NCBI GenBank assembly: GCA_020055645.1
Contig: CM034548.1
Coordinates: 32,414,201 to 32,478,200, forward strand
Origin: Tomocerus qinae
Lineage: Eukaryota > Arthropoda > Collembola > Entomobryomorpha > Tomoceridae
Length of the DNA stretch: 64,000 nucleotides
Reading direction: 5' to 3'
The translations under genes and the position numbers were made by a program. This document shows, piece after piece, positions 14,036-43,375 of this stretch. The first letter of the stretch is position 1; each line of letters starts with the position of its first letter. The notes below the pieces were generated by a model. It had not been told where the DNA came from, made no database searches, and saw nothing but the letters and a program-made list of their open reading frames with translations.

Positions 14036-14038
14036 AAT

Positions 14039-14326
14039 CCTAGTATACCGACGCTCAACGGAATAGACCGATATATAGCTCATTCGAAAGATCTCGTCGA
14101 GTACATCACGAATATGATATTGGTTTTTGGGGCAACCCCCCAAATAAGAAAGTTATGGTCGGTTAAAGTTGAAAATATGACTATTTCGATGCCTATATTT
14201 TTAGAAAACGAAGAGTTACAAGTTCTTTAGGACATCGTTGTTTTGATCTTCATGGTGAATTTACTTGTAACTATGGCAACGTAGCTAATAACAACATGCA
14301 GGTTGGGTTTTGTAAAATTCTAAATT
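14039..14326 (+). repeat. left terminal inverted repeat of the 14039-16225 element
   Basis: This 288-bp arm pairs with 15937-16225. I found four substitutions and one single-base indel between the arms. The base missing here lies in the run GAAGAGTT, where the other arm reads GAAAGAGTT. A near-palindrome of the form TTGGGGCAACCCCCCAA at about 14130-14146 could form a small subterminal hairpin. Near-identity of the arms implies recent insertion or arm homogenisation. Confidence 0.9.
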
Positions 14327-14343
14327 GCACCAACTTCTATGTT

Positions 14344-15890
14344 TAAAAAAATGCTAATTGTGACCACGTTCCATGTTTAATTTTCATCAATATTAACTAG
14401 GTTTAGGCTTTAAACAAAATGCTAATTGTGACCACGTCCCATGTTCGATTTTCATCAATTTTAATTAGGTTTAGGCTTTAAAAAATGCTAATTGTGACCA
14501 CGTCCCATGTTCGATTTCCATCAATTTTAATTAGGTTTAGGTTTTAAAAAAATGCTAATTGTGACCACGTCCCATGATCGATTTCCATCAATTTTTATTA
14601 GGTTAGGTTTTAAAAAAATGCTAATTGTGACCACGTTCCATGTTTAATTTTCATCAATATTAATTAGGTTGAGGCTTTAAAAAAATGCTAATTGTGACCA
14701 CGTCCCATGTTCGATTTTCATCAATTTTAATTAGGTTAGGTTTTAAAAAAATGCTAATTGTGACCACGTTCCATGTTCGATTTCCATCAATTTTAATTAG
14801 GTTGAGGCTTTAAAAAAATGCTAATTGTGACCACGTCCCATGTTCGATTTCCATCAATTTTAATTAGGTTAGGTTTAAAAAAATGCTAATTGTGACCACG
14901 TCCCATGTTCGATTTCCATCAATTTTAATTAGGTTAGGTTTTAAAAAAATGCTAATTGTTACCACGTCCCATGTTTAATTTTCATCAATTTTAATTAGGT
15001 TAGGTTTTAAAAAATGCTAATTGTGACCACGTGCCATGTTCGATTTCCATCAATTTTAATTAGGTTAGGTTTTAAAAAAATGCTAATTGTTACCACGTCC
15101 CATGTTCGATTTCCATCAATTTTAATTAGGTTTAGGTTTTAAAAAAATGCTAATTGTGACCACGTCCCATGTTCGATTTCCATCAATTTTAATTAGGTTA
15201 GGTTTTAAAAGATGCAAATTGTTACCACGTCCCATGTTTAATTTTCATCAATTTTAATTAGGTTAGGTTTTAAAAGATGCAAATTGCGACCACGTGCCAT
15301 GTTCGATTTCCATCAATTTTAATTAGGTTAGGTTTTAAAAAAATGCTAATTGTTACCACGTCCCATGTTCGATTTCCATCAATTTTAATTAGGTTTAGGT
15401 TTTAAAAAAATGCTAATTGTGACCACGTCCCATGTTCGATTTCCATCAATTTTAATTAGGTTAGGTTTTAAAAAAATGCTAATTGTTACCACGTCCCATG
15501 TTTAATTTTCATCAATTTTAATTAGGTTAGGTTTTAAAAAATGCTAATTGTGACCACGTGCCATGTTCGATTTCCATCAATTTTAATTAGGTTAGGTTTA
15601 AAAAAAATGCTAATTGTGACCACGTCCCATGTTTAATTTTCATCAATTTTAATTAGGTTAGGTTTTAAAAAATGCTAATTGTGACCACGTCCCATGTTCG
15701 ATTTCCCTCAATTTTAATTAGGTTAGGTTTTAAAAAATGCTAATTCTGACCACGTCCCATGTTCGATTTCCATCAATTTTAATTAGGTTAGGTTTTAAAA
15801 AAATGCTAATTGTGACCACGTCCTATGTTCGATTTCCATCAATTTTAATTAGGTTAGGTTTAAAAAAATGCTAATTGTGACCGCGTGCCC
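14344..15890 (+). repeat. tandem array, about 23-24 copies of a unit of about 66 bp
   Basis: The word CTAATTGTGACCACGT or a close variant recurs about every 66 bases, and I count about 23 full units plus a degenerate last one (ACCGCGTGCCC, ending near 15890). Each unit runs AATGCTAATTGTGACCACGT, then CCCATGTTCGATTTCC (or ...TTTAATTTTC), then ATCAATTTTAATTAGG, then TTAGGTTTTAAAA. The A-run length varies. Units differ mainly at GTGACC versus GTTACC, CGTCCC versus CGTGCC versus CGTTCC, and TTCGATTTCC versus TTTAATTTTC. There are no unique spacers, so it is not a CRISPR array. No open frame runs through it. Internal arrays like this can seed satellite DNA. Confidence 0.95.
14948..15605 (+). repeat. 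higher-order repeat, period about 264 bp, 2.5 copies
   Basis: Four unit types succeed one another in a fixed order. A has GTTACC and TTTAATTTTC. B has CGTGCC and TTCGA. C has GTTACC and TTCGA, and is followed by AGGTTTAGG rather than AGGTTAGG. D has GTGACC, CGTCCC and TTCGA. The order is ABCD from 14948, ABCD again from 15211, then AB from 15475, a spacing of 263 and 264 bases. The variant AGGTTTAGG linker after both C units supports block duplication over coincidence. The second block has GATGCAAATT starts in A and B that the others lack, so the blocks have diverged slightly. Confidence 0.8.
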
Positions 15891-16150
15891 TTAACTAAAT
15901 CAAAAATGATGAAAATTGAAGTTAGAACAATGAAAAAATTTAGAATTTTACAAAACCAAACCTGCATGTTGTTATTAGCTACGTTGCCATAGTTACAAGT
16001 AAATTCACCATGAAGATCAAAACAACGATGTCCTAAAGAACTTGTAACTCTTTCGTTTTCTAAAAATATAGCCATCGAAATAGTCATATTTTCAACTTTA
16101 ACCGACCATAACTTTCTTATTTGGGGGGTTGCCCCAAAAACCAATACCAT
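15860..16150 (-). other. 96-codon open frame lying in the right arm of the TIR element
   Basis: The frame starts at an ATG at 16150 and covers most of the right arm, then continues through the spacer into the last array unit. Upstream of the ATG it stays open to the outer tip of the element at 16225. The predicted peptide is of mixed composition with no motif I recognise and a hydrophobic C-terminal part. The left arm carries the same beginning (ATG at about 14118), but a one-base deletion near codon 34 breaks the frame. Of the arm differences, one is synonymous (GTC/GTT) and one is Val/Ile. This is too little to argue selection. It may be chance, or a relic of the parent element's gene. Confidence 0.2.
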
Positions 16151-16225
16151 ATTCGTGATGTACTCAACGAGATCTTTCGAATGAGCTATATATCGGTCTA
16201 TTCCGTTGAGCGTCGGTATACTAGG
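15937..16225 (-). repeat. right terminal inverted repeat of the 14039-16225 element
   Basis: This 289-bp arm is the reverse complement of 14039-14326 with four substitutions and one extra A. Read inward from its outer tip on the minus strand, it stays open in one frame across the whole arm. That frame is described in a separate entry. Confidence 0.9.
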
Positions 16226-16228
16226 AAT

Positions 16229-34819: not shown

Positions 34820-35556
34820 CAAATAATTTAAATTTCGTTGATATCCATATTCAGTTCTAATACACAAATACAAACCTATGAATATAAATCACTTCTAAAA
34901 CTTATAATGGTAACATAGACGTCACTTGATAATTGTTTTAACGTCTTACATATAGTAAATACAAATATTATTAGATGACTTTCTCTCTCATCAGGGAACA
35001 TTACTAAAATTATTTAATTTATAAATTTGTAAAGTTTTGCAGAATATAAGAAATGTTTATTTGTACAATAATTTAAATTCCGTTGTTATCCATATTCAGT
35101 TCTAATACACAAATACAAACCTATGAATATAAATCACTTCTAAAATTTATAATGGTAGCATAGACGTCACTTGATAATTGTTTTAACGTCTTGCATATAG
35201 TAAATACAAATATTATTAGATGACTTTCTCTCTCATCAGGGAACATTACTGAACTTATTCAATTTAAAAATTATAAAGTTTTGCAGAATATTATAAATAT
35301 TTATTTGTACAATAATTTAATTTCCGTTGTTATCCATATTCAGTTCTAATACATAAATACAAACCTATGAATATAAATCACTTCTAAAAATTATAATGGT
35401 AACACAGACGTCACTTGATAATTATTTTAATATATTATATATTTAAATAAATACAAATAATATTAGATGACTTTCTCTCTCATCAGGGAACATTACTGAA
35501 CTTATTCAATTTAAAAATTATAAAGTTTTGCGGAATATTAGAAATATTTATTTGCT
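34820..35556 (+). repeat. three tandem copies of a 245-bp unit
   Basis: The copies start at about 34822, 35067 and 35311, giving periods of 245 and 244. Each contains TCCATATTCAGTTCTAATAC, CAAACCTATGAATATAAATC, GACGTCACTTGATAATT, AGATGACTTTCTCTCTCATC and AGTTTTGC(A/G)GAATAT in the same order. Copies 2 and 3 share CTGAACTTATTCAATTTAAA, where copy 1 reads differently. Copy 3 has extra changes after GATAATT. The order of changes suggests copies 2 and 3 derive from a later duplication. No coding frame runs through, and the flanks show no inverted ends. Each unit has a GACGTCAC word, a CRE-like half site, whose use is unproven. Confidence 0.93.
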
Positions 35557-42202: not shown

Positions 42203-42206
42203 TATA
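42203..42206. repeat. target site duplication TATA, left copy
   Basis: The four bases immediately before TGTTGTAGGCGG are TATA. The same four directly follow the right end CCGCCTACAACA at 43372-43375. Four bases is the length I recall for Ginger1-type insertions. The word is palindromic and AT-rich, so an accidental match is possible. Confidence 0.7.
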
Positions 42207-42238
42207 TGTTGTAGGCGGAGAGGGAAAGGTTACTGGGA

Positions 42239-42298
42239 GGGATATAATATCCCTCTCCGACTAGGCAGGAAGAGATAGCTCTGTACCGCTAGCGGTAC
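42239..42298. promoter_or_regulatory. subterminal palindromes and direct repeats in the element arm
   Basis: GGGATATAATATCCC (42239-42253) is a palindrome around a single central base. GTACCGCTAGCGGTAC (42283-42298) is a perfect 16-bp palindrome. ACTGGGAGGGATAT occurs at 42232-42245 and again at 42317-42330 in the same orientation. All are mirrored in the right arm. Repeated subterminal words of this kind are typical of transposase binding sites. That role is inferred from position only. Confidence 0.45.
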
Positions 42299-42580
42299 CG
42301 AGCCATGAGGTTTCCGACTGGGAGGGATATGTCGTAAAGGATTGATATGAATGATTCTATGTGTATAAGTGCCACAAATGTCGCAGATTTTAGGTTACTC
42401 TTATATTTATTCATTGTAATCATTATTTTCTATAATATTCATAAATATTAAGTATATTGCACTTTTTGAATCAGTCATAATAAAATCATAAATTATTAAG
42501 TCAAGATTGACAGTCAAATAGTTAAGTATGTTACGCTGCTATAATTATTAATAATTGATATTCTTTCCAAAGCCAGGAGT

Positions 42581-42667
42581 TCAATCACCTAAAGTTTTGC
42601 AAGAACGGCTGGTGCCGTTGTGGCATTTAGTACCACAGTGTATATCAGTCTTTTTACAGGAACATTT
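42581..42667 (-). pseudogene. antisense copy of the last 28 codons of the transposase-like gene
   Basis: Read on the minus strand from 42667, this stretch encodes KCSCKKTDIHCGTKCHNG, then ten more residues and a TGA (42583-42581). It matches the C-terminus in the right arm with Pro-to-Ser, Asn-to-Thr and Ser-to-Thr changes. The TAA used in the right arm is TTA here, so the frame runs on to the next TGA. Both arms have a TGA at that second position. All cysteines and the histidine of this half of the cluster are kept. Its upstream codons are missing because the arm ends here, so it cannot make a protein alone. Confidence 0.75.
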
Positions 42668-42988
42668 CGTTGGATCAAATACTTATCCAACAAAGTTCTC
42701 CAAAGACTAGAAAATGGTAATCTTAAACTACAATGTGCCAAGGGGATCATTACATGTATAGTAAGTGAAATAAATGTCGGTCGATGGACCGCTGAAATCG
42801 ACACAACTGGATGGCCGGAGGCACCTATGAAGTACATAACTGCATTGCGATCTGTAACATCGTACACCTCTCAATCCATTTGCAAGTGCAAGGGTAACTG
42901 TCAAAGTAAAAAATGTCCCTGTAAAAAGAATGATATACACTGTGGTACTAAATGCCACAACGGCAGCAGCCGTTCTTGCAGAAAATAA
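42668..42988 (+). pseudogene. 3' fragment of a Ginger/KRBA2-like integrase gene with Cys-rich C-terminus
   Basis: A plus-strand frame runs through the loop into the right arm and stops at 42988. The open frame extends back to a GTG at 42620, but codons before 42668 belong to the inverted left arm and are not true coding sequence. The C-terminus has a cysteine cluster of the form CxC-x3-C-x4-CxC-x6-C-x3-CH...C, with its first Cys codon at 42881. The middle part (ENGNLKLQCAKGIIT) resembles, from memory, the short region that precedes this cluster in KRBA2-like/Ginger integrases. The cluster probably binds zinc. An unrelated CXC (tesmin-type) domain is the main alternative. No integrase core, promoter or in-frame ATG at the start is present, so this is a fragment, not a working gene. 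Confidence 0.65.
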
Positions 42989-43371
42989 GATAATTGAACT
43001 CCTGGCTTTGGAAAGAATATCAATTATTAATTATTATAGCAGCGTAACATACTTAACTATTTGACTGTCAATCTTGACTTAATAATTTATGATTTTATTA
43101 TGACTGATTCAAAAAGTGCAATACACTTAATATTTATGAATATTATAGAAAATAATGATTACAATGAATAAATATAAGAGTAACCTAAAATCTGCGATAT
43201 TTGTGGCACTTATACACATAGAATCATTCATATCAATCCTTTACGACATATCCCTCCCAGTCGGAAACCTCATGGCTCGGTACCGCTAGCGGTACAGAGC
43301 TATCTCTCCCTGCCTAGTCGGAGAGGGATATTATATCCCTCCCAGTAACCTTTCCCTCTCCGCCTACAACA
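42911..43371 (-). repeat. right arm (461-bp terminal inverted repeat)
   Basis: The arm pairs with 42207-42667. Its inner 78 bases are the last codons of the transposase-like frame, ending at the TAA at 42986-42988. The remainder is the non-coding tail and terminus. The same subterminal words and palindromes occur here in mirror order, including GTACCGCTAGCGGTAC at about 43280-43295. Confidence 0.93.
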
Positions 43372-43375
43372 TATA
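43372..43375. repeat. target site duplication TATA, right copy
   Basis: TATA follows the right terminus directly and matches 42203-42206. The flank continues as a TA run, so a longer duplication cannot be excluded. The left flank (GGTATA) does not support more than four bases. Confidence 0.7.

Follow-up and report, generated by a model that had tools for sequence, protein, structure and literature searches.

Introduction

The origins of fold-back transposons and of other transposons with long terminal inverted repeats (TIRs) are usually guessed from the end products. Tm1 is, by title, reportedly a Mutator/Foldback element, and Tetris is said, also by title, to be a fold-back DNA transposon. 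Galileo, from Drosophila, resembles the element described here in its long, length-variable TIRs, in having TIR-only copies, and in that its authors propose recombination between TIRs (PMC3573991). Unlike the present element, Galileo belongs to the P superfamily and generates 7-bp duplications, and in the available part of that article its TIR length variation consists of internal tandem repeats and missing TIR sequence, with no mapped inverted copy of the 3′ part of a gene.

Ginger2/Tdd elements have TGTNR ends, 4-bp duplications, an RTATAY target and a transposase that has H2C2 and rve domains but lacks GPY/F and YPYY motifs, and Ginger1 duplicates a CCGG or CCGT target (Bao, Kapitonov, Jurka 2010, PMC2836005). 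According to the available part of that article, Ginger2/Tdd elements are about 2.8 kb long, including an aphid element of 2,885 bp with a 166-bp TIR, and its table gives TIRs of 45 to 297 bp, in contrast to the 336 bp of the close relatives studied here. A fold-back form does not appear in that part of the article, whereas here a 3′ end and coding sequence are present as an inverted duplication. Foldback inversions are also known at double-strand breaks in yeast, where they are primed by short inverted microhomologies beside the break. As far as the available part of that study goes, they are mostly 5–34 bp at the reporter break (PMC11724301), compared with about 700 bp proposed here, in a transposon that would then have spread.

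Here we describe an element found in a 64,000-nucleotide stretch of Tomocerus qinae DNA, referred to as the window. It is a fold-back derivative of a Ginger2-like element and was probably born by inverted duplication of the 3′ half at a hairpin. Fold-back transposons and Ginger2 elements are each known, but their combination, with a readable birth junction, was not met in the literature searched (titles and abstract openings).

Results

The window element is 1,165 bp long. Its arms (42207–42667 and 42911–43371) are 461 bp each, align with no gaps at 97.2% identity and are separated by a 243-bp spacer. The ends are TGTTG...CAACA, i.e., TGTTGTAG...CTACAACA, with TATA at both flanks, and the match between the arms reaches 465 nt when the flanking TATA is added. 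This pair was the longest of three inverted-repeat pairs detected in the window (at least 40 nt, up to 4 kb apart, 14-base seeds), which argues that the pairing of the arms is not due to chance. The loop and the right arm read as the C-terminal part of a transposase, including a Cys cluster, and this tail is 63% and 68% identical over 93 amino acids to those of two relatives, L066 and L067, respectively. A Pfam search with the window C-terminal peptide found no domain, and the integrase core is absent from the element. With its long inverted arms, short spacer and presence at many sites with 4-bp duplications, this is a non-autonomous, Ginger2-like fold-back element, whose features are listed in Table 1.

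Table 1. Features of the fold-back element and its flanks (window coordinates).
Feature	Coordinates	Strand	Basis or remark
Left flank TATA, putative 4-bp target site duplication	42203..42206	.	Palindromic, not proof alone
Whole fold-back element, non-autonomous, Ginger2-like	42207..43371	+	Arms, copies, flanks
Outer left arm, probably an inverted 3′-type terminal repeat, 336 bp (normal TIR length)	42207..42542	-	Normal TIR stops here in L036, L061, L062, L073 and L074; 3′-type at 4/5 columns
Inverted copy of the 3′ untranslated stretch	42543..42589	-	Pairs with 42989–43035; missing from five normal 5′ ends
Final 78 bp of the transposase coding end (25 codons and stop), as an antisense copy	42590..42667	-	Pairs with 42911–42988; ORF
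Putative founding junction, axis of the inverted duplication: GTTGGATCA-AATAC-TTATCCAAC	42669..42691	.	Most other copies have TGATCCAAC as right side
Site of 13 bp missing in the window copy	42692..42695	+	Present in most other 461-type copies
Transposase C-terminal coding remnant with Cys cluster, stop 42986–42988	42683..42988	+	ORF, tail matches
3′ untranslated stretch, stop codon to TIR	42989..43035	+	
Original 3′ terminal inverted repeat, 336 bp	43036..43371	+	
Right flank TATA, putative 4-bp target site duplication	43372..43375	.	

The window holds other repeats. An inverted-repeat element at 14038–16226 has arms of 175 nt (98%) and 129 nt (95%) around a 66-bp tandem array of approximately 23 copies (14342–15886), resembling a satellite inside a fold-back element. 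At 34822–35554, a 245-bp unit is repeated three times in tandem with 93% matches.

The 334-Mb genome (115 contigs) was searched with the whole element, which gave at least 152 matches (40 of 348 candidates were scored, and the counts are lower bounds). At least 14 places span element positions 1–1140 or more at 90% identity or higher, and one of them, L014, has shorter arms, of the 427-bp type described below. The preliminary description of the locus had proposed looking for other copies of the same fold-back shape, and 12 were found with both ends and different flanks (L001–L012). Forty elements were extracted with their ends and flanks, leaving out the end-lacking copies L013, L015, L019, L020 and L044. 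The 4-bp flanks are equal in 35 of the 40, and a purine precedes and a pyrimidine follows in all 35. The exceptions are L011, L034, L062 and L074, with unequal flanks, and L061, for which no right end was recovered. The duplication is TATA in 26 of the 35 and TATC, TATG, TGTA or CATA in the others. TATA is palindromic and AT-rich, and thus the flanks of the window copy are not sufficient by themselves to demonstrate a 4-bp duplication. The length of four is established by the non-palindromic cases, namely TATC/TATC (L014, L016–L018), TATG/TATG (L023), TGTA/TGTA (L025, L064) and CATA/CATA (L036, L046). The flanks vary among copies, which indicates that the fold-back form itself moved, and copies at many sites with 4-bp duplications point to a mobile unit. 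Three copies, L016–L018, have identical flanks and lie about 9.5 kb apart on contig C1, and they therefore resemble a single insertion copied along in a recent tandem segmental duplication.

The termini, the 4-bp duplication and the RTATAY target fit Ginger2 rather than Ginger1. A TGTNR left end is present in 40/40 extracted elements and the corresponding right end in 38/40 (L003 has one substitution there, and L061 was mentioned above). The Ginger1 target CCGG/CCGT was not found at the flanks, which are TATA-like, and Pfam, at E values up to 1, listed neither of the C-terminal domains of Ginger1, OTU and Ulp1, for the frames of L066 or for the tail frame of L067. One relative in the same genome, L066, consists of about 2.85 kb between 127-bp inverted repeats and has one open frame with H2C2 and rve and a second with the tail. 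The rve profile scored 36.9 bits (cut-off 32.6) and H2C2 25.4, just under its cut-off of 25.5. The D, D and E residues are spaced by 58 and 37 residues, and the H2C2 plus DDE core was seen in L066 only. Three other distant elements, L070–L072, match both the integrase and the tail and have inverted repeats of approximately 125–135 bp; L071 and L072 terminate in TGTCGTAG beside TATA. The earlier reading of the element as Ginger-like is thus borne out, since its ends, duplication and target agree with Ginger2 and a relative joins the Cys tail to an H2C2 and rve integrase.

The tail of the window family is approximately 60–68% identical to those of the distant integrase-coding elements. Closer relatives exist as internal deletions: L036, L061 and L062 keep the tail and also the gene start, whose match to L066 begins at residue 14, a Met, and L073 and L074 retain the 5′ part and the 3′ end without the tail. 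No autonomous copy belonging to exactly this subfamily turned up among the 150 tail and 118 integrase matches listed. Eleven of the tails among these matches lie within 5 kb of an integrase match; they are 50–63% identical, and none reaches 80%. With the tails of L066 and L070–L072 only about 60% identical and no intact source among the matches listed, the source may have been lost or missed, or may lie outside the assembly. L067, another of the more distant relatives, contains at 907–2415 an inverted copy of sequence that extends as far as the stop codon of the tail frame (arms 997–1084 and 2125–2212, 93%), possibly an independent fold-back event. Another observation is that, of 40 listed matches, 24 are confined to the sequence immediately internal to the L061 5′ TIR (query 1–185 or 3–185); these matches, of which only L073 was read, apparently represent an abundant miniature family derived from the 5′ end.

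The composition of the left arm was analyzed by comparison with relatives that have a normal 5′ end (L036, L061, L062, L073 and L074), all of which still carry the gene start or its upstream stretch. In these five the TIR runs to element position 336, equivalent to window 42542, and the 5′ and 3′ ends differ beyond it. The outer 336 bp of the left arm are therefore expected in any member of the family. The inner 125 bp (42543–42667) mirror the 3′ untranslated stretch together with the terminal 78 bp of the coding sequence and have no counterpart in the five normal 5′ ends. The preliminary description had taken the whole left arm for an inverted copy of the 3′ end, codons included, and had held that a normal 5′ terminus equal to this arm would speak against it. 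That reading stands for the inner 125 bp and had to be corrected for the rest, where 336 of the 461 bp match normal 5′ ends as an ordinary long TIR.

A test of diagnostic columns, including 5 normal 5′ ends, 10 3′ ends and 16 left arms, was used for the outer portion. Nine columns were listed; column 146 was dropped for lying beyond the TIR, and columns 56, 60 and 125 were dropped because the 5′ ends disagree among themselves, most left arms carrying the commoner 3′ base at these three. Five usable columns remain within the 336 bp: 72, 105, 106, 124 and 137. There the normal 5′ TIRs carry T, G, A, T and A, respectively, in five of five cases, and most of the ten 3′ TIRs have a different base. 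The left arms are mainly 3′-type: they have the 3′-type base at columns 72, 106 and 137 in 16/16 cases and at column 105 in 13/16. Thus, four of the columns uniform among 5′ ends favor a 3′ copy for the outer 336 bp as well, and one, column 124, goes against it, with the 5′-type base in 16/16 left arms; the 3′ TIR of L036 also has that base. Two of the ten 3′ TIRs, those of L061 and L062, bear the 5′-type base at columns 72 and 124, which indicates that the ends of normal elements exchange sequence and that single columns can mislead. A tandem duplication of element positions 175–292 inside the TIR, present at both ends of L061 and L062 and at the 5′ end only in L073, is another sign of this end-to-end exchange. 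Mean TIR distances favored the 3′ end slightly for L036 (0.090 versus 0.101 for the 5′ end) and the 5′ end for L074 (0.101 versus 0.118 for the 3′ end). In a TIR-only tree the fold-back arms formed their own group, which does not separate a 5′ from a 3′ origin and is the reason for relying on single columns; a tree including bases beyond the TIR was set aside for mixing in non-homologous sequence. We conclude that the left end of the fold-back element most probably derives from the 3′ end by copying, in line with the preliminary description.

The center of the element was compared with the corresponding region of relatives of parent type. Parent-type copies read CGACAGATCA-AATAC-TGATCCAACAAAC and fold-back copies TTTTGTTGGATCA-AATAC-TGATCCAACAAAC, with small differences among copies. 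The parent has a 5-bp hairpin, GATCA-AATAC-TGATC, and the mirror of the fold-back copies passes beyond the hairpin, as GTTGGATCA-AATAC-TGATCCAAC. The 23-base axis, with up to three mismatches, had 55 matches in the genome, compared with two for a reversed-pattern control. By our own count, 26 of the 55 are of the fold-back type (three of them being one tandem-duplicated insertion) and 29 of the parent type, 28 with GACAG or GGCAG and one with GACGG. In simulated random junctions, 5 bp or more were shared by the two sides in 0.6% of 200,000 trials. Read backwards from the axis, the left half continues as TGATCCAACAAA and then jumps about 230 bp ahead in the right half to ATGTCCC, with AAA common to both. 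A search for an undeleted palindrome found no place in the genome where both sides of the axis agreed with the intact sequence at up to three mismatches, a threshold that a more diverged copy would escape; the deletion of about 230 bp may therefore equally date from the copying itself. The junction is as expected from an inverted duplication of the 3′ end that was hairpin-primed or used 5 bp of microhomology, and the simplest account, judging from these comparisons, is that the 3′ half was inverted and duplicated around the hairpin and that one arm suffered a deletion. The proposal made at the outset, in which the 3′ end was duplicated head to head while the 5′ end and core were lost, gains support here, and the event can be placed more sharply, at a pre-existing 5-bp hairpin.

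Fold-back copies fall into three arm types, of approximately 461 bp (the window type), 427 bp (L014, L022, L023, L034 and L063) and 362 bp (L024–L030 and L059). The axis of the 427 type reads TTTGTT followed by ATCAAATACTGATCC with 0 to 2 changes in four of the five copies, L023 having diverged there, which suggests that this type came from the same founding event as the 461 type. The spacer of the 427 type contains an inverted N-terminal coding fragment, detected by pattern in four of five copies (three with a longer pattern, L023 with a shorter one) and by eye, with differences, in L063. Elements of the 362 type have TGTCG ends, and the eight copies, located at different sites, share 99.7–100% identity, which points to recent movement. 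L024, the only 362-type copy used, was sister to the other fold-back arms in a midpoint-rooted TIR tree.

Seven copies considered as further arm-length types (L016–L018, L021, L022, L034 and L063) were rejected because they have extra sequence inserted in an arm. When the inserts of L016, L021, L022, L034 and L063 were compared, the only match longer than 60 bp was an 88-bp piece shared by L022 and L034. Inserts of about 550–570 bp are located at element positions ~920–924 in L016 and L063 and near the mirror position of the left arm in L022, and these three show no match longer than 60 bp to one another. The locations suggest that the arms have a preferred insertion spot.

Exchange between the two arms of a copy was assessed in the twelve 461-type copies with both arms free of inserts (L001–L012, L012 with a left-arm deletion), excluding L013, L015–L021 and the other arm types. 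No column split left from right arms in at least 9 of these 12 copies. In the arm tree the two arms of a copy were sisters in 8/12 cases, mostly with weak support, which reached 0.9 or more for L003 and L007 only. Private substitutions common to both arms of one copy numbered 30 over the 12 pairs (16 from L007; 14 without it). Between different copies there were 8 over 132 left-right pairs, 7 over 66 left-left pairs and 4 over 66 right-right pairs. Furthermore, two private deletions are common to the arms of L008. On the opposing side, two 1-base gaps are common to arms of different copies. Private mutations common to both arms of a copy indicate that the arms exchange sequence.

Discussion

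A sequence of events that could have generated the element is as follows. A parent copy would have broken inside the gene, and an inverted duplication would have been initiated at the small pre-existing hairpin GATCA-AATAC-TGATC. The 3′ half, from hairpin to terminus, would then have been copied head to head, taking the place of the 5′ end and the integrase core, and the product would have had arms of about 700 bp around a 5-nt loop. At birth or soon after, approximately 230 bp of the new left arm would have been lost at the AAA match, leaving arms of 461 bp and a spacer of 243 bp. Both ends being 3′-type and the arms holding all of the normal TIR, a transposase of the Ginger2 type, supplied in trans, could bring the two ends together and mobilize the unit. 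With its two 3′ termini the unit would have been movable into RTATAY with 4-bp duplications, would have reached a dozen copies or more, and would keep exchanging sequence between its arms. In a fuller version, for and against which we find the case about evenly balanced, hairpin-primed snap-back of one 3′ end made a spreading, two-ended element out of a dead fragment, which would mean that the 3′-type end is all that a Ginger2 transposase requires; the arms of this element then evolved in concert and its left halves were remodelled, including the inverted N-terminal coding piece of the 427-bp type.

The same product could have resulted from two inverted neighboring copies joined by microhomology end joining at GATCA, with no hairpin priming. 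The family is abundant, which makes inverted neighbors plausible, and GTTGGATCA/GATCAAATAC at the junction can just as well be read as 5 bp of microhomology shared by the parent sequence and its own reverse complement. However, two-copy joining needs inverted copies that were both broken at nearly the same place and whose halves met at mirror positions 5 nt apart, an arrangement that the hairpin predicts directly, and we consider this route possible but rather unlikely. Still less probable is an internally deleted ordinary element that kept its original 5′ TIR and whose left TIR grew inward from the right end by gap repair. While the normal TIR length of the outer 336 bp, the variation of arm length by subgroup (~362, 427 and 461) and the 5′-like column 124 would agree with gap repair, the 3′-type bases of the left TIR at columns 72, 105, 106 and 137 and the mirror-symmetric axis junction common to the fold-back copies argue against it.

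The remaining explanations question the nature of the element itself. A fold-back element of another superfamily could have captured a fragment of a Ginger gene, as the missing integrase core of the window copy and the blank Pfam result for its peptide might suggest. Nonetheless, the same termini and TIR flank relatives with gene start and end in place (L036, L061 and L062), and the tail recurs in the distant elements that code for an integrase and whose TIRs measure about 130 bp, with L071 and L072 ending in TGTCGTAG beside TATA; we regard such a capture as very improbable. Long inverted repeats can be misassembled, and on this general risk a false palindrome could have arisen from collapsed or chimeric reads. 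An artefact is scarcely credible, though, for copies that are found on five contigs with distinct flanks, their own mutations and matching 4-bp duplications.

The coexistence of parent-type and fold-back copies in one genome makes the proposed origin by inverted duplication of a 3′ half readable, from the hairpin junction and the mainly 3′-type left arm to the subsequent amplification. If this origin is correct, a Ginger2-like system would need no more than two copies of a 3′ end to transpose. In addition, the arm carrying antisense coding sequence could give rise to a hairpin RNA matching the transposase tail, a possible, hypothetical source of silencing.
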